A stretch of DNA of 25,409 nt from a virus. Under the pieces are notes generated by a model. That model searched no databases and had not been told where the DNA came from. It worked only from the letters and a program-made list of their open reading frames with translations. The stretch spans positions 1-25,409 of IMG/VR virus record IMGVR_UViG_3300050019_000278. One strand, 5' to 3'. Within the stretch, counting starts at the first letter, position 1, and each line of letters starts with the position of its first letter. Below are positions 1,979 through 18,684 of the stretch, piece after piece. Position numbers and translations under genes: made by a program.

Positions 1979-3013
1979 ATGCATATCTGGAAAGGTTGGA
2001 ACCACAGGACTCCTATCACTGTATTAACGTTTGACACAGTTGAACTTGCGCACAAGTTTCAAACTGACAATCTGGTATCTGTCACCGGACACACAGTAGG
2101 AAGTAGGCCAAGAGCGCACCTTAACCGCATCTTTTTAGCGGGAATTGTAGCACTAAAGACACTCAAGCTTCTCGGAGAGGATCTGTCCATATTCAAAGAT
2201 TGGAAACCCCAGTCGACGACTCGTCACTATGACGTAACAGACGACGAGATCCTCAAAGATGCAGCTCAGTTTTCCACGCGGTCAGAGTGGAAAAGAAAAG
2301 GAAAGTTCTATCAACTCTGCTCAAAACGCAGAAGAGAGCTGTTCAAGCAAGCCGTAGCTCACATGGCTCCGCCGATCGACCCGTTGGCTCAAACTCAGGT
2401 TTACGTTTATGAGTTTACTGATCACTCATGCTATGTCGGTCTCACGTGCAATCCTAAGCGCCGGCACAAGGATCATCTTGAGCAAGGAACTGTGTACAGG
2501 AAGATCTTGACCGGAGTCCCGCACACGCTGACAATCTTGCACTGTGGAATTTCTCAGAATGAAGCAGCTGAGCTTGAGATACGCGAGATAGAGGCACGCA
2601 AGTTGGATGGATGGACCGTCTACAACAAACATAAAGGAGGGGGTCTAGGTGGGGGATTCAAGTATTCCTACGCAGACGTCTTGAAGGTCGCAAAAACCTG
2701 TGTGTCAAAGAAGGATTTTGACACAAGATTTCCTGCCGTGAGCCAAGTTGTTAGCCGAAGAAAGTGGAACGATAGGTTCGACAAAGATATGGGATGGCCA
2801 TCCCATGTAAGTCACAAGTGGACGATAGAAAACTGTCTGTCAGAGGCTCAAAAATTTCAATGGAAAACAGACTGGGTCACAGGTTCTCCCGTGTCGTACG
2901 TCGCTGCAAGGAAGCAGGGATGGCTTAAGGAGATCTCTAAGCTCCGTGGTTTTAAGCCAAAGTCTCGTGCATGGGAAACAAGAGAAAAGCGCGGTACTTA
3001 TCAAAATCCATGA
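1979..3013 (+). CDS. GIY-YIG homing endonuclease with three DNA-binding repeats
   Basis: 344 residues. The nuclease core is at ~140-218: the GIY element reads VYVYEF (141-146) and the YIG element CYVGL (151-155). An arginine-rich helix NPKRRHKDH (158-166), a glutamate helix around E200 (AELEIREIE) and an asparagine in VYNKHKGGG (N216) complete the family's catalytic set. Around the core are three copies of a ~43-residue repeat (about 87-129, 229-272, 281-322) of the form 'a..F.t.sew.k.s...Y..a.r..W...', best preserved in the last copy (YVAARKQGWLKEI). Such repeats serve as sequence-specific DNA-binding modules in phage freestanding endonucleases. The gene sits between structural genes, consistent with an intron-less homing element. 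No convincing Shine-Dalgarno sequence precedes the ATG at 1979, where a hairpin lies instead. The first ~80 residues match nothing I recognise, so the true start could be further downstream. Confidence 0.82.
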   Translation: MHIWKGWNHRTPITVLTFDTVELAHKFQTDNLVSVTGHTVGSRPRAHLNRIFLAGIVALKTLKLLGEDLSIFKDWKPQSTTRHYDVTDDEILKDAAQFSTRSEWKRKGKFYQLCSKRRRELFKQAVAHMAPPIDPLAQTQVYVYEFTDHSCYVGLTCNPKRRHKDHLEQGTVYRKILTGVPHTLTILHCGISQNEAAELEIREIEARKLDGWTVYNKHKGGGLGGGFKYSYADVLKVAKTCVSKKDFDTRFPAVSQVVSRRKWNDRFDKDMGWPSHVSHKWTIENCLSEAQKFQWKTDWVTGSPVSYVAARKQGWLKEISKLRGFKPKSRAWETREKRGTYQNP

Positions 3014-4019: not shown

Positions 4020-4889
4020 TCACGGATTCCAGTCTTCGATTGCAGCAATCGCGGCTTCTGGGTCGAGTGCCAAAACTCCCCGTTCCCACTCGTCCGCAGC
4101 TCGTCCTTCGATAGACAGAGTTTTTGATGGCAAAAATGGAACCGGCATCGCGTCAGTTTGGACGTCGAGATGGAGAAGAGTGTATTCGAGACTCTCGAAA
4201 AACTGTCCTTTCTGAGTCTCAGACATCTTCAGCACGGCGCGATCAATAACCTCTTCAAGAGGGGCATCTTTGTGAAGGTCCTTGAATATCTTATCGACCG
4301 CCTTAGCCCCCAGTTTGTCGACTCCATTGATTCCGTCTCCTTTGTCACCGATGATGGCGAGCGCGATCGAAACATGGACAGGTTTGTTTACACACCATTT
4401 TTCGCAGATCTCGCGCTCCGTCATCAGTCTCTTCTTTGACAGGTCAAAGTAGTCGATTCTGGGCTCTTTCAATTGTTGAAGGTCCTTGTCTCCAGATACC
4501 ACGATCACGTGGCGCCCCAGGTTAGCGACTCGGCATGCTACGGTCGCCACCGTGTCATCCGATTCGTGATCGGGGTGTAGCACATAGGCACTGTCGCCGA
4601 ATGCCTCTTTTATGACCCGTTGGAACTCATCCAGCTTGATGTACCAGTCAGCCGGCTTGGGAGGACGTTTCTTGTTTGTCTTGGCTTTTCCGTCAAAACT
4701 GAACAGGATCCTCTCAGGAATTCCTGTCTCAAATTTAAGCATAGCAAAGAAGCACTTGAATGCCGCTGTTAAGTAACCATCCTTGTCGTGTCGAAGGTCT
4801 GATTCTGGTGAGGCTGCAGCATAATACCCTTTGGCGAATAGGCCATTGGAGTCCACTACCATGTCAGTGTTTGGTCGTTTTTTAAGCAT
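4020..4889 (-). CDS. FEN/T5-type 5'-3' exonuclease (RNase H-like flap nuclease)
   Basis: 289 residues from the ATG at 4889, preceded by AAGGTG at a 5-base spacing. An in-frame upstream ATG at 4946 would add 19 basic residues and is less likely. The metal-binding acidic residues of the FEN/PIN superfamily are in order: VVDSNG near the start (D13), FSFDGK, HPDHESDD, VVSGDKDL and IIGDKGDGINGV. The last begins a helix-hairpin-helix-type H3TH DNA-binding segment (GINGVDKLGAKAVDKIF). The length matches phage flap exonucleases such as T5 D15 or T4 RNase H. These enzymes remove RNA primers and 5' flaps during lagging-strand maturation, and the phage's own DNA ligase (22057-24021) would seal the resulting nicks. 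The gene is convergent with the 3414 gene, with only 3 bases between the stop codons. Confidence 0.88.
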   Translation of the reverse strand: MLKKRPNTDMVVDSNGLFAKGYYAAASPESDLRHDKDGYLTAAFKCFFAMLKFETGIPERILFSFDGKAKTNKKRPPKPADWYIKLDEFQRVIKEAFGDSAYVLHPDHESDDTVATVACRVANLGRHVIVVSGDKDLQQLKEPRIDYFDLSKKRLMTEREICEKWCVNKPVHVSIALAIIGDKGDGINGVDKLGAKAVDKIFKDLHKDAPLEEVIDRAVLKMSETQKGQFFESLEYTLLHLDVQTDAMPVPFLPSKTLSIEGRAADEWERGVLALDPEAAIAAIEDWNP

Positions 4890-4890
4890 A

Positions 4891-5067
4891 TCACACCTTA
4901 GGAAGGTCTTTCTTTTCTTGCTCGGCAGCTTCAGTCGCCCAATCATACAACCACGTCAAAGCGTAGTCTGGGGTCTTCGTGAGGTCAATGATCATTCCTC
5001 TGTCGGCCCAAGCGAGTTCAAATCGTTCGCGCCAACGGGCTTGTTCACTGGCTAAGACCCCGTCAAC
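4891..5067 (-). CDS. Possible frameshift-encoded C-terminal extension of the gp26-like protein (or separate 34-residue ORF)
   Basis: Downstream of the gp26-like gene, the frame one base forward stays open for 58 codons (5067 to the TGA at 4893-4891) and ends directly before the exonuclease start. Its translation begins VDGVLASEQARWRERF and continues with two more tryptophan-rich amphipathic stretches and an acidic/basic tail, which looks protein-like. The only ATG in this frame is at 4995 (34 residues, Shine-Dalgarno-like AGAGGA abutting it). There is no start codon between the preceding in-frame TAG and that ATG. Access to the full 58 codons would therefore need a +1 (or -2) ribosomal frameshift at the TTT-TTT-C run at 5074-5068. 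It could equally be a short standalone gene or non-coding leader. Confidence 0.4.
   Translation of the reverse strand, partial: VDGVLASEQARWRERFELAWADRGMIIDLTKTPDYALTWLYDWATEAAEQEKKDLPKV
4961..4988 (-). promoter_or_regulatory. Candidate promoter for the exonuclease gene
   Basis: Minus strand: TTGACC (4988-4983), a 16-base spacer, CTACGC (4966-4961). This gives the same -10 hexamer and spacing as the plus-strand candidate at 3372-3399. It would start transcription about 65 bases upstream of the exonuclease ATG. It lies inside the short open frame 4891-5067, so promoter and coding explanations compete for this segment. Confidence 0.3.
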
Positions 5068-5815
5068 GAAAAAATTCCGCGTCTAGCGACAGGTTGTGCA
5101 TGAACTCAGTTCCGCATTTGTCGCATTTGTGCTTGAGATCCGTTCCGAGATGAGGCTCCAGTTTTGCTGTGGTCTCGACATAGAAATCAAAATCAGAGGG
5201 TTGGAGTGCTTTGAACCACGTGGCAGCTTCCTCTGGAGAATCTGGTGGTCCACCGTTCACGCTGACAAGGTGGGTGATTGCGCGCGCGACACTGCGCGGG
5301 ATGGCGTCGTTGTCTGGATGGTCGAGAAGAGCGCGTTCATCGCGGACCAGAAGCGGCCTGACTCTGACCGTGTCTTGGCATGCTGGAAGAGTAAATTCAT
5401 CCCAGCCTGGATAGTCAGGACCTTTCTCTCCGATGCGCTCGAGTTGGTCTGGAATTGTGAGACTGATCACCTCGACATGGTTGCATGCAGGACAGGTCGC
5501 CTTGTATGTGACCTTGCAGTCACGCGCTGCAGCTTTTGCCACAAGGAGAATCGTGTTTACGTCTCCAGCAGGAAGTGCCTCGATGCTTTCGAGACCAACA
5601 AGTTTCTTTGTGATCTCGTATGGCAGAGTTGCCATCTGGACTTTCTTGATGTTTTTGATGACCCAATCATCGATCGATTGGTCCCATGGGTAGATTGTGA
5701 TCATTCCACCTGGAATGATGTCCTTCATCGAGAAACCGCCGGAAAGTAGCTTGATCTCGCGCTTAAACCGTTCGCGTGCCGGCTTAAGGCTTTTCAGATT
5801 GGTTTGGATGGCCAT
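5063..5815 (-). CDS. T4 gp26-family (T4_baseplate) zinc-containing baseplate/tail-assembly protein
   Basis: 250 residues from the ATG at 5815 (MAIQTNL). A frame extension to 5881 would translate through the strong terminator at 5837-5865, so I chose the inner ATG. The layout fits the T4 gp26-like family: an N-terminal 'GG.ITIYPW' strand and a helical segment (MATLPYEITKKLVGLESIEA). Then come ATCPACNHVEV (first CxxC), 'FTLPACQDTVRVRPL', a helical region with 'LQPSDFDFY', and a second CDKCGTEF (CxxC) before the terminal LDAEFFR. The two CxxC pairs probably bind zinc. In T4, gp26 acts in hub assembly. Here the gene directly follows the tail tube gene, the position taken by tail-assembly chaperones in many tailed phages. 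The 3' end carries a T6 run (codons TTT TTT) and an open +1 frame, which raises the possibility of a frameshifted long form. Confidence 0.78.
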   Translation of the reverse strand: MAIQTNLKSLKPARERFKREIKLLSGGFSMKDIIPGGMITIYPWDQSIDDWVIKNIKKVQMATLPYEITKKLVGLESIEALPAGDVNTILLVAKAAARDCKVTYKATCPACNHVEVISLTIPDQLERIGEKGPDYPGWDEFTLPACQDTVRVRPLLVRDERALLDHPDNDAIPRSVARAITHLVSVNGGPPDSPEEAATWFKALQPSDFDFYVETTAKLEPHLGTDLKHKCDKCGTEFMHNLSLDAEFFR

Positions 5816-5836: not shown

Positions 5837-5865
5837 AAAAAGGGCGCCGCGGTTAAACGGCGCCC
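5837..5865 (-). terminator. Intrinsic terminator after the tail tube gene
   Basis: Reading leftward, GGGCGCCG (5865-5858), an 8-base loop (TTTAACCG), CGGCGCCC (5849-5842), then TTTTT (5841-5837). The 8-bp GC-only stem followed by a U-tract is a textbook rho-independent terminator. It sits 24 bases past the tail tube stop and 22 bases before the gp26-like start. It should make the tube and sheath transcripts end here, or attenuate read-through into the gp26-like gene. Confidence 0.88.
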
Positions 5866-5889: not shown

Positions 5890-6570
5890 TCAGGCCGTCA
5901 GGCTTCTGTTGATGCCGGCGATCACAGAAGAAAGACCTCTGCTGATCTCGCTCATGTAAGCTGTCGGGTTCAAGTCCGACACGTTTTCTGGGTAGTAACG
6001 GTCGATCTGGAGGGAAACGTTCAATGTGACACCTTCATTGGTGGTCGTCATGTTGCCGTTCGACGGCTTCAAATTGCGGATCCACACACCTTCAAGAAGG
6101 TAACGGGCACCAAGCGTGTAGGCATTGGTCGTTGTGACAGAATCGACGTTTTTCTGGACGTCCATGTTCGGGATCATCCAGTAGAAGTAGCCGGTCGTTT
6201 TGACCGCACTTCCAAGTCCTGAACCGCCCGTGCGAGGATTCGAGATCAGCCAGTGCCAACGCTCGAGAAGTTCCGCAGTGCGCTTGTTGAAAGCGTACCT
6301 GACAGTCATGTCGACCGCACCGGATTGTGTATCTGCGCCTGGGACACTGTTCGTCTGGTTGAGGTATTTGATCGGAATGACCTCCTGAGCGCGATCAGGG
6401 AACGGGAACTCCTGCACGGCAAAGGCAACTTCTTTGTCCCAGAGCGACGCACCTGCGATGTCGCTTAAGATACGAGGAAACAGGAGCTGGACATAGAATA
6501 GGTCGCTGCGCTGCTGGTCCAGTCCGGAACCAGTTGCACCCCACTGATTTTTGAAGTTTACGAGACTCAT
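5890..6570 (-). CDS. Tail tube protein (T4 gp19-type)
   Basis: 226 residues, immediately downstream of the sheath gene on the same strand, which is the canonical sheath-tube order in contractile phages. The N-terminus (NQWGATGSGLDQQRSDLFYV) starts the beta-sandwich. 'FPFPDRAQEVIPIKYLNQ' and 'DMTVRYAFNKRTAELLERW' correspond to the second sheet and the conserved helix of tube proteins. The C-terminus continues with 'LEGVWIRNLKPSNGNM', a long strand (TLNVSLQIDRYYPEN) and a helical tail. Its size is somewhat above T4 gp19 (163 residues). The partial protein at 1-543 is a paralogue. A strong terminator follows the gene. Confidence 0.88.
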   Translation of the reverse strand: MSLVNFKNQWGATGSGLDQQRSDLFYVQLLFPRILSDIAGASLWDKEVAFAVQEFPFPDRAQEVIPIKYLNQTNSVPGADTQSGAVDMTVRYAFNKRTAELLERWHWLISNPRTGGSGLGSAVKTTGYFYWMIPNMDVQKNVDSVTTTNAYTLGARYLLEGVWIRNLKPSNGNMTTTNEGVTLNVSLQIDRYYPENVSDLNPTAYMSEISRGLSSVIAGINRSLTA

Positions 6571-6593: not shown

Positions 6594-8669
6594 TTACTGG
6601 TTGCTGATGTTGGTCAGGGTCGTGCCGCTCTTCTCGACAGTAGCCGTGATGATGAAGACCTCAGCGACATCCTCAGGGATGATGGAGAGATTGACAATCA
6701 CCTGGCGCCGGTTGCGGGTATCCGCGGTGTTGTTGTTCGCGTCGAGCTGGAGCGAGTAACCTTCGACACCACGCTCGGACTTGACCGCTTCCATGAAGTT
6801 GGTGTAGTCGAGGCGGAGCTGTGAGAAGAGGATCTGGTCGATTGGATCGAACGTGTAACCACGAGCGATGTTGGCAAATCCTTTCAAGATGTAGTTCACG
6901 AGCACCACAGAGTGTAGCGCCGTGAGCTTGCTTTCGTCGCGCTGCATCGTGCGATCTCCGTAGATCTCGATCGAGTTGCCCATCGGCAAGATGACGTTGA
7001 CCGAGTTGCCGTTGCCGTAGACGGCATTCTTGACGTCCATGCTGGCGCGACGATAGCGGAGGCTCAGTGCCTCTGGGATCAGGCCGCGAACGTCGCCTGC
7101 AACTGCAGACCATGGCTTATCCACATCGAATGTGCGAGCAGCGGCACGGAGGTAGCCGAGAGCGGGTGGAACGTATTTCAGCTCACCGGTGAAAGTGTCA
7201 GCGATCTGGAACCAGTTCCAGAAGATGGCAAAACGATAGTTGTCGATTCGGCCGTTTCCGGCATAGAGACCAACGCCGTTGTGCCAGTCACCAGCTTCGC
7301 GAAGGTTGAGACCATCTGGAACGCTTCCAACACCAACAGAGTTAATGCGAGCGGCGATCCGCGCAATCTCCTGCGCGACCGCGGTTGATGTGGAGTCTGG
7401 GACGCAGAGGAAGTCGACGTCAACGTTGGTGTCGTTCGGGTCGTCGAAGAGCTTGAGACCGGTCGGCTGGTCATCTGCAGGATCAATCGTGCCGATGTAA
7501 TCAGCGTCAGAGACGTTTTCGCCGTTGTATCCGTTGGAGAACTGGGCGATGTTCGACGGAGTCGAGATGGAAAGGTTCCACGGATTGTACGTGTTGCCAG
7601 GATGTTCGGTTCCGAAAACATACACCACGTTGATGTATGACGAATTGCCATTGATGCGCGTGATGTAATAATCAGCGCTTGTAGGATCCATCGAGAGGGA
7701 GTCGATCGTCTCGACAAGGGTCGAACCGTCGAGCACGAGAAGTTTCTTGGTACCAGCGTTTGAACCTGGACCGACCTGAACCGTGATTCCAGAGGTGGAA
7801 CCCTGAGTGTTTGCCCACGTGCCGGCGGTGTTTGCCTGGAGTTGAAGCGCGATCGGACCAACCTGCGCAGTGACCTTGTACACGGTCGCGGCGGTGTAGG
7901 AGTCCTGGAGGGCGAGAGCTTGGTAACCGATGTCTGTGAGGTTGATCACCTCGAGAAACACAGTGTTATCGGCGCGTACAGATTTGACTCGAACTTCGTT
8001 CGTGGTGGTGTGACCGGACTGAACGATTTTGATGGTGTCACCAGGATTGAGTTGTGTCTGGTCTCCGCTGACCTGAAATTGATACGAGTTCTTGTCACCG
8101 ATGATCGTACCGAGGAGAGTAAGAGCAGAATCGTATGTTGGCGCGGTGAGGAACGCTTCGGCAGGGTTGGCGGCGTTTGGCACACGAGAACGACCGACGG
8201 TAGCGCCGTTGTAGGAATCCGCCAGCTGAACGGCTTCTCCGCCGACGCTTACGGTGTTGATGGTCGAACCAACGATCGTATCGATCTTGGCGTTAACCGT
8301 AGTGACCTTTCCGATCTGACCGATTCGGAGATAGTCTCCAGGAGAGAAAAGGTTTGCATTCGGCGTGACAACGGCATAAGATCCGGACGCGCCAGACGCG
8401 TTGTTGCTAGATGTGTCGACGTACTGCGCTCCGACGCGGGCAACTTTGCAGCCGTCGCTTGAATCAGCGGCCAGCGCAATTGCGTCGCCCATGAAACTGC
8501 CGTCGATTGGTTGACCGAACAGACGCGCGAATTCGTAGATCGACGGGGTGTTTGTCACCTCGTTGAACGCGCCCTTCTGCGCGATGCCTACAAACCCAGC
8601 GCGGAAACGGCTAAACTGTTGCGGAATCTGGCTGACGTCTTTGACGAGTGTGATGACTTGAGGGAACAT
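6594..8669 (-). CDS. Tail sheath protein
   Basis: 691 residues, the major contractile sheath subunit (T4 gp18-type). The N-terminus 'FPQVITLVKDVSQIPQQFS' and 'AGFVGIAQKGAFNEVTNTPS' followed by 'FARLFGQP' is the sheath handshake/first-domain pattern. The C-terminal third carries the conserved features 'DKPWSAVAGDVRGLI', 'NVILPMGNSIEIYGDRTM' and 'LHSVVLVNYILKGFANIARG', then 'LDYTNFMEAV' and a final beta arm (VIVNLSIIPEDVAEVFIITA). Between them is a large variable insertion (about residues 70-350). It includes two diverged copies of a beta-domain: 'LFSPGDYLRIGQIGKVTTV' ending in 'QLADSYNGATV', and 'QLNPGDTIKIVQSGHTTT' ending in 'ALQDSYTAATV'. These inserted domains probably decorate the tail surface. 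The tube gene follows after 23 bases. Confidence 0.93.
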   Translation of the reverse strand: MFPQVITLVKDVSQIPQQFSRFRAGFVGIAQKGAFNEVTNTPSIYEFARLFGQPIDGSFMGDAIALAADSSDGCKVARVGAQYVDTSSNNASGASGSYAVVTPNANLFSPGDYLRIGQIGKVTTVNAKIDTIVGSTINTVSVGGEAVQLADSYNGATVGRSRVPNAANPAEAFLTAPTYDSALTLLGTIIGDKNSYQFQVSGDQTQLNPGDTIKIVQSGHTTTNEVRVKSVRADNTVFLEVINLTDIGYQALALQDSYTAATVYKVTAQVGPIALQLQANTAGTWANTQGSTSGITVQVGPGSNAGTKKLLVLDGSTLVETIDSLSMDPTSADYYITRINGNSSYINVVYVFGTEHPGNTYNPWNLSISTPSNIAQFSNGYNGENVSDADYIGTIDPADDQPTGLKLFDDPNDTNVDVDFLCVPDSTSTAVAQEIARIAARINSVGVGSVPDGLNLREAGDWHNGVGLYAGNGRIDNYRFAIFWNWFQIADTFTGELKYVPPALGYLRAAARTFDVDKPWSAVAGDVRGLIPEALSLRYRRASMDVKNAVYGNGNSVNVILPMGNSIEIYGDRTMQRDESKLTALHSVVLVNYILKGFANIARGYTFDPIDQILFSQLRLDYTNFMEAVKSERGVEGYSLQLDANNNTADTRNRRQVIVNLSIIPEDVAEVFIITATVEKSGTTLTNISNQ

Positions 8670-14499: not shown

Positions 14500-15071
14500 G
14501 CGCGTCTCCAGGCCAGAAGGTGGGTTCCGACCGCTTCTTTCGAAGGGATCAGGTTAGGTGCGACAGAGTCATATCCGTCCAGCCACACAAGCTTTTCAGC
14601 CACTCGGTCGAACACTTTCTTCGTGGTGCCAAAGTCTCTAACGGCACGGCTTGGATTTCTTGCCATGATCTGGTTGAGAACGCCGTCTTCACCGAAAACG
14701 ACGATCATGCCGTGGCGGATTGCGGCGTTGGTCATCTCTCTGACAGACATCTTCTTCATGTCCTCTTTAGCTTCAGGGAAGATTGAAGGTAAGTCCTCTC
14801 TAAAGAACGTGTTGCACATTTCCTTAGGATTGATAGGACCGGCAGCTGGAATTCCTTGGTCAAGACCAGGATAGAAAAAAACTGCCGAATCGCAGTTGAG
14901 CATCTTCGGTGGAGCACCGATCAATTCGCGGTATCTCTCCTCCTGCTCATCTTCACCAATCATGCGCCGAGCTTCTTTGAGCGCGTCTTTACGTCGACGG
15001 ATCCTCTTAATCTTCGCCGAAACGGAGTTCAAAAGTGCGCTGTTATCGAAACTTGTTGCAGAAGCGTCCAC
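14496..15071 (-). CDS. Uncharacterised phage protein
   Basis: 191 residues from a GTG at 15071, inside the left copy of the 23-bp direct repeat. The N-terminus has a basic helix (AKIKRIRRRKDALKEARRM). 'LNCDSAVFFYPGLDQGIPAA' follows, then a helix-rich C-terminal half (KKMSVREMTNAAIRHGMIVV). I recognise no domain. The 4-base overlap with the SWIM-like gene indicates translational coupling, so the two products may act together. The gene is divergent from the HNH cassette, which has evidently been inserted just upstream of its start. Confidence 0.55.
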   Translation of the reverse strand: MDASATSFDNSALLNSVSAKIKRIRRRKDALKEARRMIGEDEQEERYRELIGAPPKMLNCDSAVFFYPGLDQGIPAAGPINPKEMCNTFFREDLPSIFPEAKEDMKKMSVREMTNAAIRHGMIVVFGEDGVLNQIMARNPSRAVRDFGTTKKVFDRVAEKLVWLDGYDSVAPNLIPSKEAVGTHLLAWRRA

Positions 15072-15088
15072 GACTATTTACCGGTTCT
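15066..15088. repeat. Left copy of 23/24-bp direct repeat flanking the HNH-AP2 gene
   Basis: GTCCACG-ACTATTTACCGGTTCT is repeated at 15605-15628 with one extra base and one C/T difference (22 of 24 aligned positions identical). This copy spans the GTG start of the minus-strand gene 14496-15071. Confidence 0.85.
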
Positions 15089-15100
15089 AAGACAGCGTGC

Positions 15101-15601
15101 ATGAAGACAGAGTTGACGCATGAATTGCTAACCGAGTTGCTTCGCTATGACGAAGAGACTGGAAGGTTCTTTTGGAGAACTTCTGGTTCAGGCCGAAGAT
15201 CCAACGTTCCAGCTGGAACGCGCAGCAAGGGATATGTTTTTATAGGGATCAGAGGGGCGAAAATTAGCGGTCATCATCTAGCTTGGTTTTACAAACACAA
15301 GGTCTGGACAGACGCCAAAATTGACCACGTCAACGGAATTAGTGACGACAACCACATCAACAATCTTCGAAAGGCCACTCACGCAGAGAACGGCCGTAAC
15401 CGCAAACTAAATGAAAACAACACCAGCGGCTACAAGGGAATCTATCGAGGAAAAGGCGGAAAATGGGTAGCACGCACTATGTTTGAACAGCGATATGTTC
15501 ACATTGGTTGTTTCGACTCGGCAGAAGAAGCAGCCAGAGCATACGACGCGAAAGCGCGCGAGCTTTTCGGACGGTTTGCGCGGTGCAACTTCTCTGATTA
15601 A
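15101..15601 (+). CDS. HNH-AP2 homing endonuclease
   Basis: 166 residues from the ATG at 15101 (MKTELTHELL); an upstream in-frame start at 15035 lies inside the neighbour. N-terminal half: an HNH nuclease with 'GRFFWRTSGSGR', 'ISGHHLAWFYKH' (first His pair), 'IDHVNGISDDNHINNLRKAT' and a following Asn-rich linker. The D-H-V-N-G-x-x-x-D-N-x-x-x-N-L-R core is the hallmark of phage HNH homing endonucleases. C-terminal half (~110-166): an AP2-type DNA-binding domain, 'SGYKGIYRGKGGKWVAR' followed by 'YVHIGCFDSAEEAARAYDAK' and a terminal 'LFG..A..NF'. The gene is flanked by 23-24 bp direct repeats and sits between divergent genes. That placement is consistent with a recent mobile insertion. Confidence 0.93.
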   Translation: MKTELTHELLTELLRYDEETGRFFWRTSGSGRRSNVPAGTRSKGYVFIGIRGAKISGHHLAWFYKHKVWTDAKIDHVNGISDDNHINNLRKATHAENGRNRKLNENNTSGYKGIYRGKGGKWVARTMFEQRYVHIGCFDSAEEAARAYDAKARELFGRFARCNFSD

Positions 15602-15636: not shown

Positions 15637-18600
15637 GTGGCCGTCATCCCAAAGAAAGTCTATATCCGTCACTTCGGAACCATCAGAGAAACAGAGCTTG
15701 TGCTCCCTAAACCAGGACTGTGTCTTGTAGTTGGGCATAACATGACCAGCTCTGGAGTTGAGTCGATCGGGTGCCACGCAAAGGGTCAGAAAGTGCTGAT
15801 GTTTGACGGCACGCTCAAGCAAGTCGAAGACATAGTAGTTGGTGACTTTCTGATGGGTCCTGACTCAACGAGGCGCACCGTGTTGAACCTTATTAGAGGG
15901 CACGGTGACATGTTCACGATCACTCCATTGCGCGGAAAGCCTTTTGTTGTAAACCGTGATCATATCTTGGCCATGAAAATCAGCCCTAACAGGGTTTACA
16001 AGGCCACTCCTGAGCATGGGTTGATCTGCCACAAGACTTCGCGCCCGACCGGAGGAGAGGTTCATCTGTCAGTTGGAGAGATACTCAACAGGAAGGGAAA
16101 GACGTTGACGCGCGGTATCCTGAAGCTCTTCAAAACAGGAGTAGAGTTTAAGAAAAACTCAAATGTGCTTGAGATTCCTCCTAGAATACTGGGCATGTGG
16201 CTTGGTGATGGCGACAGCACGCGCCCAGATTTAGCAACTGCTGACAAAGAGCTATCAGATCTATGGAGAATGTGGGCGTCCACTCTCGGTCTTAAGTTCA
16301 GAGAAATACCGAGTCCGTCCAAAGCTGTCAATTGCAGGATTTCATACGGTCATACGTGGAAACGTGGCATGAACACCGGACTCGTGCTCATCAGAAAGCT
16401 TGGTTTATGGAAGAATAAGCATATACCTCACAAATACAAAGTGGCAAGTAGGACAGACAGACTAGAGCTTCTTGCAGGGCTCATAGACACGGATGGATCG
16501 CACGGAAAAGGATCACTCTACTATGTCTCAGTTAACAAAAGATTGGCAGAAGATGTGGAATTTCTGTCAAATTCACTTGGTTTTAACGCCACCATTAAAC
16601 CGAGAAGAGTGCGCTGTCAGAATGGAGGGTTTTCTGATTGCTTTCTTGTTAAGATCATCGGAGATTGCTCTGCTGTGCCGTGCGCTCTCTCTAGGAAACA
16701 AGCGCTGATAAGGTCGAAGACTAGGAGTCACCCAACTGGTGCACGGAAGTTCAAAGATCCTCTCGTAAGCGGATTTTCAATCACTTCTGCTGCTGCGTCA
16801 GATTACTACGGTTTCTCTCTCGATAAAGATCAACTCTATCTTTTAGACGATTTTACTGTTACCCACAACTCAGGCAAAACTCTCCTTGGAGAGGCAATCA
16901 GCAGAACCCTTCTTGGCGTGAGAGGACGCTTTGAAGGTGCCGGTCTTGGAGCATACAGCTCAGACCTTTGTGGAAACAAAAATACACTTATCCAACTCGA
17001 GTGTGATCTCAACGGCCAATCTCTCACGATTTGGTCTGGTTACAAATGCGCCGAGCTAAGCAAGTCTGGAGAGGGACTGAGATTTAAGCTGGGTGACAGC
17101 GATCCAGTCGAGCGCGGAACTATCCAAGAGACGCGTGAAGAACTCAACCGACTTCTTGGAATCACTCAACCTCTGTCGGAGTTTGCCATCCACCTCGACG
17201 GAGAAAGACTCAAATTCAACCACCTGAGTGAACGCCAGCTCGTCGAACTATTTCTGTCAGCGTTGTCGACACCAAACTGGGAAGGAGCACAAAAACGTGT
17301 GAGCGCGGAACTTTCAAGATCTTCTGAGGAACAAGCAGGTCTTCAGTCGAGGAAGGAACTTTACGAATCGTCACTTGCCCAGTACGACGATGACATGAAG
17401 GAACTTGAGCTAAAGGCCGTTGAGATCGAGGACAGCATTAACCTTCAGAAGAAAGAGCAAGAAGACAAGATCTCGAAGGTAGAAGAGTCAAAAAAGAAGA
17501 AAGAGTCAAAGCTGTCGAAGCTTAAAAATAGACGCGCAGAGATCAAGGTCGAGTTGAAGAAGATTGAAGACGCAAATGCTGTGACATATGCCGATCTTGA
17601 GTTGAAATTCAAACGGGCAAAAAGCGCTGTTGTAGAAGCGTCGTCAGTGGTCGAAACTGCGACTGGTTCAGTTAGTGCAGAGGAATCTCGTGTTGACACA
17701 GCCTCAGACGAACTTCTGAAGCTGAAGGAACCTGACACATGCCCGACGTGCGGAAAGCCTTGGGACAAGAAGCACTCAGTCGCGCTTTTGGAATCGAAGA
17801 AGAAAGCGCTGTCTGACGCAAAAGCCACGCTTTTGGAGAAAGAGAAGGAGCTCGCAAAGGCAAGATCAAAACGAAGCGATGCTCGCAATTCACAGGATGA
17901 GATCCAAGCTCAGATGAAGGAACTCAACCTTGGAACAGCGACGCAGGCGTTGAGCAAAGAGTACGAAGGCATTGAATCCGATGAGCAGGATCTTGACGAC
18001 CAGATCAAAGACGACGATAGAGACATCGCGGATCTCAAGAAACCAATCTCTGACTCAAAATTAGTAGCAGTGCGCACTCGCATTCAAACTGCAAAACAGT
18101 CGAAGAAAACCATGCAGAGTGACCTCTCTGAGACCAATAGGAAGCTGGTAGAGGTTGGCGCATTCATCCAGCTTCTGTCCTATCTGTACAAGGCATTTGG
18201 ACCGACAGGCGTGCCAAACATGGTCCTACAAGATTGCCTTGAGTATTTGAACCGCGCGGCTGGACATCTTTCGTCAGTCTTGACAGGAGACCTCGTTGAA
18301 ATCTCCTTCAGCTCGACTAAAGTGCTTGCAACCAGTGCAGAGAAACCGTGTCTCGTCATCAATGCCAAAAACCGCGCAGGTTCAAAAAAGTTCATCGGAT
18401 CGTCAAAGGGAGAGGCCGGTATCTCAAACCTGATTATCTCTGAGACTCTCTACAACCTGGGACGACTCTGGCAGAAGGTGGCGTACCGTTGGCTCGATGA
18501 AGCGGTCAACTCACAGGACAAGACTGTGCGCGGCACTGCTTATTCGTACTACAGGAACCAAGCAAAACAACGTCAACAGATCATTTTCGTGGTTGATCAC

Positions 18601-18684
18601 AGTCCAGACGTTGAGGCACATGCCGACAGCATCATTCTCGCCGAAAAATGCGGGTCTGGATTTACCACATACCGCGCGCTTTAG
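15637..18684 (+). CDS. gp46/SbcC/Rad50-like recombination ATPase containing an intein
   Basis: 1015 residues from a GTG at 15637; about 649 remain after intein removal. Exteins: the N-terminal strand 'GTIRETELVLPKPGLCLVVG' leads to a P-loop interrupted after 'ESIG' and resumed with SGKTLLGEAI. Long coiled coils (~560-860) flank a zinc hook CPTCGKPW (C702, C705). The ABC signature region is SSKGEAGIS (~922-930), Walker B is YRWLDEAV (D954-E955) and the H-loop strand is 'IIFVVDHSPDVEAHADSIIL'. This is the large subunit of the Mre11/Rad50-type nuclease (T4 gp46; partner gp47 not in this window). It would process DNA ends in recombination-dependent replication. The spliced P-loop, ESIGSGKT, departs from GxNGSGKT at two positions. 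No Shine-Dalgarno sequence precedes the GTG. The 3' end overlaps the convergent gene by 4 bases. Confidence 0.92.
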   Translation: MAVIPKKVYIRHFGTIRETELVLPKPGLCLVVGHNMTSSGVESIGCHAKGQKVLMFDGTLKQVEDIVVGDFLMGPDSTRRTVLNLIRGHGDMFTITPLRGKPFVVNRDHILAMKISPNRVYKATPEHGLICHKTSRPTGGEVHLSVGEILNRKGKTLTRGILKLFKTGVEFKKNSNVLEIPPRILGMWLGDGDSTRPDLATADKELSDLWRMWASTLGLKFREIPSPSKAVNCRISYGHTWKRGMNTGLVLIRKLGLWKNKHIPHKYKVASRTDRLELLAGLIDTDGSHGKGSLYYVSVNKRLAEDVEFLSNSLGFNATIKPRRVRCQNGGFSDCFLVKIIGDCSAVPCALSRKQALIRSKTRSHPTGARKFKDPLVSGFSITSAAASDYYGFSLDKDQLYLLDDFTVTHNSGKTLLGEAISRTLLGVRGRFEGAGLGAYSSDLCGNKNTLIQLECDLNGQSLTIWSGYKCAELSKSGEGLRFKLGDSDPVERGTIQETREELNRLLGITQPLSEFAIHLDGERLKFNHLSERQLVELFLSALSTPNWEGAQKRVSAELSRSSEEQAGLQSRKELYESSLAQYDDDMKELELKAVEIEDSINLQKKEQEDKISKVEESKKKKESKLSKLKNRRAEIKVELKKIEDANAVTYADLELKFKRAKSAVVEASSVVETATGSVSAEESRVDTASDELLKLKEPDTCPTCGKPWDKKHSVALLESKKKALSDAKATLLEKEKELAKARSKRSDARNSQDEIQAQMKELNLGTATQALSKEYEGIESDEQDLDDQIKDDDRDIADLKKPISDSKLVAVRTRIQTAKQSKKTMQSDLSETNRKLVEVGAFIQLLSYLYKAFGPTGVPNMVLQDCLEYLNRAAGHLSSVLTGDLVEISFSSTKVLATSAEKPCLVINAKNRAGSKKFIGSSKGEAGISNLIISETLYNLGRLWQKVAYRWLDEAVNSQDKTVRGTAYSYYRNQAKQRQQIIFVVDHSPDVEAHADSIILAEKCGSGFTTYRAL
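15772..16869 (+). mobile_element. Intein with LAGLIDADG (DOD) homing endonuclease in the P-loop
   Basis: Residues 46-411 of the gp46/SbcC-like protein (366 residues). The N-terminal block begins CHAKGQKVLMFDGTLKQVED and contains VVGDFL. Block B contains 'VNRDHILAM', with the conserved His but N in place of the usual Thr. Two dodecapeptide motifs, ILGMWLGDGDST (~184-195) and LLAGLIDTDGSHG (~278-290), carry both catalytic acids (D191, D284). Block F is 'YYGFSLDKDQLYLLDDFTVT', and block G ends with H410-N411, followed by Ser412 as the +1 nucleophile. All splicing residues (Cys1, penultimate His, terminal Asn, +1 Ser) are present, so it should splice. The endonuclease looks intact and able to home into empty P-loop alleles. 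Confidence 0.93.

Follow-up and report, generated by a model that had tools for sequence, protein, structure and literature searches.

A probable G/GT-like translational frameshift at the end of gp26-like genes in tailed phages

In tail assembly chaperones of the G/GT type, the short form binds the tape measure protein, the long form binds the tail tube protein, and neither form is found in the virion. The frameshifting that produces these two forms is widely conserved in long-tailed phages, with T4 listed as an exception (PMC5009743). In the contractile-tailed viruses Mu and HSTV-2, tail chaperone genes are decoded into the +1 frame, by a -2 shift and a +1 shift, respectively (PMC5009743), and this is a likeness in decoding to the locus described here. 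T4 gp26 and gp51 are both listed as hub assembly chaperones, and gp51 is reported to be required for assembly but not to be part of the particle (PMC3004832). In the open-access papers searched, we found no earlier report of a frameshift in the gp26/T4_baseplate family.

The window analyzed here is the whole of a viral sequence of 25,409 nt (IMGVR_UViG_3300050019_000278, positions 1 to 25,409). Its gp26-like gene and the neighboring genes have the following layout:

4020..4889 (-): 5'-3' exonuclease, the next gene (Pfam PF02739, E 2e-15)
4891..5067 (-): +1-frame extension of 58 codons plus stop, the proposed "T" part of a ~307-residue fusion (homology; pN/pS ~0.33)
5063..5065 (-): zero-frame stop TGA, one codon past the shift site
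5068..5074 (-): putative shift site TTT TTT C, with UUU in the P site, C as the next base, and CGU as the A-site codon (sequence and aligned DNA)
5063..5815 (-): zero-frame gp26-like protein of 250 aa with two CxxC motifs (PF12322, phrog_150, AlphaFold2 model)
5890..6570 (-): tail tube protein, upstream neighbor (phrog_45, E 1e-9)
6594..8669 (-): tail sheath protein, upstream neighbor (phrog_23, E 7e-39)

The gp26-like gene starts with the ATG at 5815, and its 3' end reads GAA TTT TTT CGT TGA, the T6C run lying at 5074-5068 (-). Its zero-frame protein, the proposed "G" chaperone form, matches Pfam T4_baseplate PF12322 at 33.3 bits (cut-off 24.5; E 5e-8) and the phrog_150 "baseplate hub" family at E 2e-10. 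When one base is skipped after the T6 run, a 58-codon frame opens, VDGVLASEQARWRERFELAWADRGMIIDLTKTPDYALTWLYDWATEAAEQEKKDLPKV, with its coding part at 5067-4894 and its stop at 4893-4891 on the minus strand. The initial annotation had described this +1 frame, open for 58 codons to 4891, and every sequence detail of that description was verified; its placement of the gene downstream of the tail tube was borne out by the phrog_45 match of 5890..6570. It had also placed a promoter-like element at 4961-4988, which a consensus scan did not recover. The exonuclease gene most likely starts at the ATG at 4889, directly after the extension stop, and the extension would therefore occupy the whole gap between the two genes. 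The downstream neighbor in the window is thus the exonuclease, not a tape measure gene.

Conservation of the slippery run and the shifted extension

Relatives of the gp26-like gene were found through its main domain, not through the extension. A scan with the extension only returned no relatives with one query sequence and two loci with three. The scan of genome contigs returned no relative, and in the phage collection the window had distant relatives but no close one. The first two relatives, 62% and 54% identical, both keep TTTTTTCGTT, and their extensions lie in the +1 frame and are 63% identical to that of the window. Profile searches brought the set to 23 distinct close relatives, the window included. 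All 23 keep TTTTTTCG, which is also invariant across the 19 sequences of the DNA alignment, and all 23 have TTT TTT CG at the site, even at a locus that is 68% GC. Elsewhere in the same 23 genes, phenylalanine is encoded by TTT in 28% of cases. The independent-site probability printed for the TTT TTT pair (7e-26) is not to be read literally, because it ignores shared descent. Every relative that was read has the extension frame open, with protein-like and homologous content. The shifted open reading frame and the slip run are retained in relatives down to 33-40% identity, and in 9 of the 23 close relatives the extension stop overlaps an ATG as ATGA.

The extension is under purifying selection. 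Past the zero-frame stop, pooled pN/pS was 0.25/0.76, compared to 0.25/0.69 in the main domain; with pS near saturation, these values show constraint and are not a calibrated dN/dS. The initial annotation had suggested checking aligned homologues for conservation of the T run and +1 frame and for a dN/dS below 1 in the extension. The run and frame are conserved in 23/23 close relatives, and the pN/pS is well below 1.

For the wider family, two further scans were added, the first of which matched at least 600 stretches, and the survey came to cover 133 non-identical loci drawn from many metagenomes and isolated phages. Extension profiles placed the extension in the +1 frame at 125 loci, in the -1 frame at 6, and in the zero frame at none, and had no match among 3,742 decoy ORFs. 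The shifted extension was thus detected by profile in 131 of the 133 loci; at the two others, a +1 extension could be seen by eye, shortened in L119. Clustering at 90% identity gave 128 clusters (120 +1, 6 -1, 2 in neither), and clustering at 70% gave 95 (87 +1, 6 -1). The median open length past the zero-frame stop was 68 codons, versus 11 in the other frame. On these sequence comparisons, the occurrence of a shifted extension behind a slippery run is confirmed as not due to chance. Homopolymer runs are error-prone in general, and a misread run, or a pseudogene with a newly arisen frameshift mutation, could give a broken frame of this kind; this explanation is refuted by the same layout in 133 non-identical loci from so many sources, and we consider its chance negligible. 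At one locus (L078:2001-2790), the site reads TTC TTT TGG CCC and the extension is in the -1 frame within a clade that uses +1, perhaps through an indel or an assembly error.

Several named phages carry the arrangement. A +1-frame extension is present in Bacillus SP-15, Listeria LIS04, Flavobacterium immuto, Microcystis Mel-JY01, and Streptococcus GXN1, and a -1-frame one at U_UUU_UUC in Pseudomonas Paride and Agrobacterium Atu_ph07. Two huge-phage records were assigned to the +1 frame (LR756508) and the -1 frame (LR756511), and direct reading of Rhodothermus RM378 revealed a +1 extension. The SP-15 site is GAA TTT TTT CAC, within the stretch GAATTTTTTCACGCC. According to the annotations of SP-15, LIS04, and immuto, the gene order is sheath, tube, gp26-like gene, and tape measure, the tube gene of immuto being annotated as "tail completion". 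In Mel-JY01, sheath and tube precede the gp26-like gene, the long gene that follows has no name, and the extension appears in the annotation as a second gene, a hypothetical one. A frameshift throughout the family would call for corrected annotations in the cultured phages SP-15, LIS04, immuto, Mel-JY01, RM378, Paride, and Atu_ph07, where the extension is either lacking or given as a gene apart.

The two-gene annotation of Mel-JY01 corresponds to another explanation, in which the extension is a small gene of its own, with an independent start codon or reached by re-initiation, and never fused. Start codons within the overlap of some wider-family members would suit it: at 79 of 131 loci (ATG in 38), the shifted frame contains a start codon ahead of the extension or among its first codons, and independent initiation is therefore conceivable there. 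The window has no such start. The earliest ATG, GTG, or TTG in its +1 frame is the ATG at 4995, codon 25, within the conserved part, and the initial annotation's statement that no start codon precedes this internal ATG held for the window. Most close relatives have no start upstream of the extension domain, and in most of them the shifted frame opens just 2-4 codons ahead of the T run. A separate gene would also leave the synonymous conservation of TTT TTT CG unexplained, and we give this explanation a very slim chance. A single gp26-like gene very probably makes two proteins, judging from the sequences compared here.

Decoding at the shift site

At 121 of the 125 +1 sites, UUU is followed by C or U (UUU_Y), so that tRNA-Phe would be able to re-pair perfectly one base forward. 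The remaining 4 sites belong to one subclade without UUU_Y, in which CCC_A may serve as the shift site. UUU_Y has been reported as especially prone to +1 shifts in bacteria, and the influenza PA-X cassette is UCC_UUU_CGU (PMC5009743). The UUU_CGU core of PA-X is identical to that of the window's clade, though it belongs to another system and is read by another ribosome.

In the proposed mechanism, most ribosomes would decode GAA UUU UUU CGU and terminate at UGA, which yields the 250-residue protein. A fraction would slip one base forward with peptidyl-tRNA-Phe on the second UUU, before CGU is decoded. The tRNA would then re-pair with UUC, and reading would go on as GUU GAC GGG and so forth for 58 codons, yielding a fusion of ~307 residues. 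From the site, its conservation, and its position, we infer that such a shift probably takes place in cells.

In the initial annotation, tRNA-Phe was suggested to slip by +1 from UUU to UUC, with the remark that a -2 slip leads into the same frame. The +1 slip is supported by the 121 UUU_Y sites. A -2 slip, as used by Mu (PMC5009743), would give the same fusion with one extra phenylalanine, and re-pairing after such a slip would be perfect at the T6 or T7 sites of 105 of the 125 loci, the window among them; for the window's site alone, it is possible on sequence. Against it stand 16 family sites (for example, TTC TTT CGT, TTC TTT TGG, and TTT CTT TGG) that allow re-pairing after +1 and none after -2, together with the documented standing of UUU_Y as a +1 motif (PMC5009743), and we regard a -2 slip as unlikely. 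RNA polymerase slippage on the run could also produce some mRNA one U shorter, translated straight through, and a T6 run in the window and T6 or T7 in most relatives would allow for it. The T run is at most 4 at 15 of the +1 sites, however, and members with runs of 3-4 keep the shifted extension at the same place, while the -1 members have the tandem-slip heptamer U_UUU_UUC. Polymerase slippage is very unlikely as the source of the fusion. The 16 sites that pair only after +1 and the 15 short runs thus argue against both of these routes, and ribosomal +1 slippage is the likeliest shift direction from the sequences. In most -1 members, U_UUU_UUC is found at the same aligned position.

Stimulatory RNA structures are common with programmed frameshifts and are not required for +1 shifts. 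No conserved stimulatory or consensus RNA structure was found downstream of the site across the family sequences examined. A stem just 3' of the site had been suggested for the window; its arms, GACGGG and CCCGUU, are present, but the stem folds no better than shuffled sequences (z = +1.41), is not conserved, and is not supported. A GC-rich hairpin just past the zero-frame stop was observed in one subclade (L006, L012, L141, L142, and L143), beginning 5-6 bases 3' of TTTTTTC, its base showing a single compensatory change. L008, L139, and L140 have a hairpin at that place with different arms. This post-stop hairpin is a possible clade-specific stimulator.

Comparison with lambda G/GT and with T4 gp26 and gp51

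The layout of the gp26-like gene resembles lambda G/GT in several ways. In both, two frames overlap towards the end of a chaperone-like gene, and the long form is extended at its C-terminus. The lambda genes lie between tube and tape measure, as does the gp26-like gene in SP-15, LIS04, and immuto, and in both cases the shift is conserved among phages despite sequence divergence. Unlike lambda G/GT, the gp26-like family has two CxxC motifs and is annotated as baseplate hub, and it shifts by +1 at UUU_Y in most cases and by -1 in a minority alone. From the position, the two-product design, and the persistence through divergence, we infer by analogy a lambda G/GT-like chaperone role for the products. 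The two forms would most likely act like lambda gpG and gpGT: the short one would coat the tape measure protein, and the long one would recruit the tail tube subunit. Based on the sequence comparisons, we consider it highly likely that the gp26-like gene and its extension represent an unrecognized chaperone frameshift of the G/GT type with two products.

Structures were modeled for the zero-frame protein and for one gp51 homologue. Modeled confidently with AlphaFold2 (pLDDT 94), the zero-frame protein had gp26-type proteins as its top matches in a viral library, and its two highest-ranked PDB matches were chains of the HK97 tail assembly chaperone 2OB9, a weak and non-significant match (E 0.5, prob 0.72). 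The T4-type gp51 model did not retrieve 2OB9 in the PDB fold search, and the 2OB9 match is therefore only suggestive.

The family profile aligns with Straboviridae gp26 up to the terminal EFF (hhalign E 2e-9), and T4 gp26 ends at the same EFF as the window's zero-frame protein. T4 gp26 has no extension, and gene 25 begins at once. Its paralogue gp51 (E 5e-16) is longer: gp26 ends at gp51 residue 204, and gp51 carries 45 further in-frame residues past the gp26 domain, where the extension would begin. In predicted secondary structure order, gp51 tracks the window's zero-frame protein closely and then has three added helices. Compared profile to profile with a more diverse gp51 set, the extension profile matched gp51 best at its C-terminus, weakly (E 6e-4, prob 29%), and had no match to gp26. 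Extension HMMs searched directly against T4-type gp51 gave no match.

T4 differs from the family described here in having two separate genes and no frameshift. On a reasonable, unproven reading of these alignments, T4 divided the two products between separate genes, gp26 and gp51. More broadly, we lean towards the view that T4-type and many large contractile phages have their missing G/GT chaperone in the gp26/T4_baseplate superfamily. A frameshift, +1 and rarely -1, would be its common state, and T4-like phages would have a duplication instead, in which gp26 serves as the short form and gp51 as the long, fused one. Replacement of the frameshift by gene duplication would then explain the T4 exception. 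If true, the exception to the G/GT rule is largely removed, and the "baseplate hub" proteins gp26 and gp51 gain a concrete role as tape measure and tube chaperones. The puzzle of T4 genes 26 and 51 becomes directly testable, and the +1 and -1 shifts at one aligned position offer a natural experiment on the evolution of shift direction.

Other features of the window

Between the tail tube and gp26-like genes, a terminator-like hairpin followed by T's was observed at 5842-5865 (-). Strong hairpins occupy the same intergenic place in L002, L003, L004, and L105, and a terminator is annotated at the corresponding junction of SP-15; the hairpin may lower chaperone expression relative to the tube. 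The motif GTTCT[AT] lies ~9-14 bases upstream of the start of the window's gene (5827 (-)) and of many close relatives (L002-L158), and an AGGAGG-type ribosome binding site is absent upstream of these motif-bearing genes. GTTCTC was found at that distance before two other window genes (22057 and 15637).

The second of these, 15637-18684 (+), encodes a long protein with Hint and LAGLIDADG domains by Pfam matches. The two domains make up a probable intein within what resembles the ATP-binding loop of an SbcC/gp46-like ATPase, the host protein being identified by reading its sequence. Two probable homing endonucleases were also observed, one with a GIY-YIG domain at 1979-3013 (+) and one with AP2 and HNH domains at 15035-15601 (+). 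Finally, an open frame at the contig end, 25163-25408 (-), resembles by eye the C-terminal zinc ribbon of IS605-type TnpB/OrfB.
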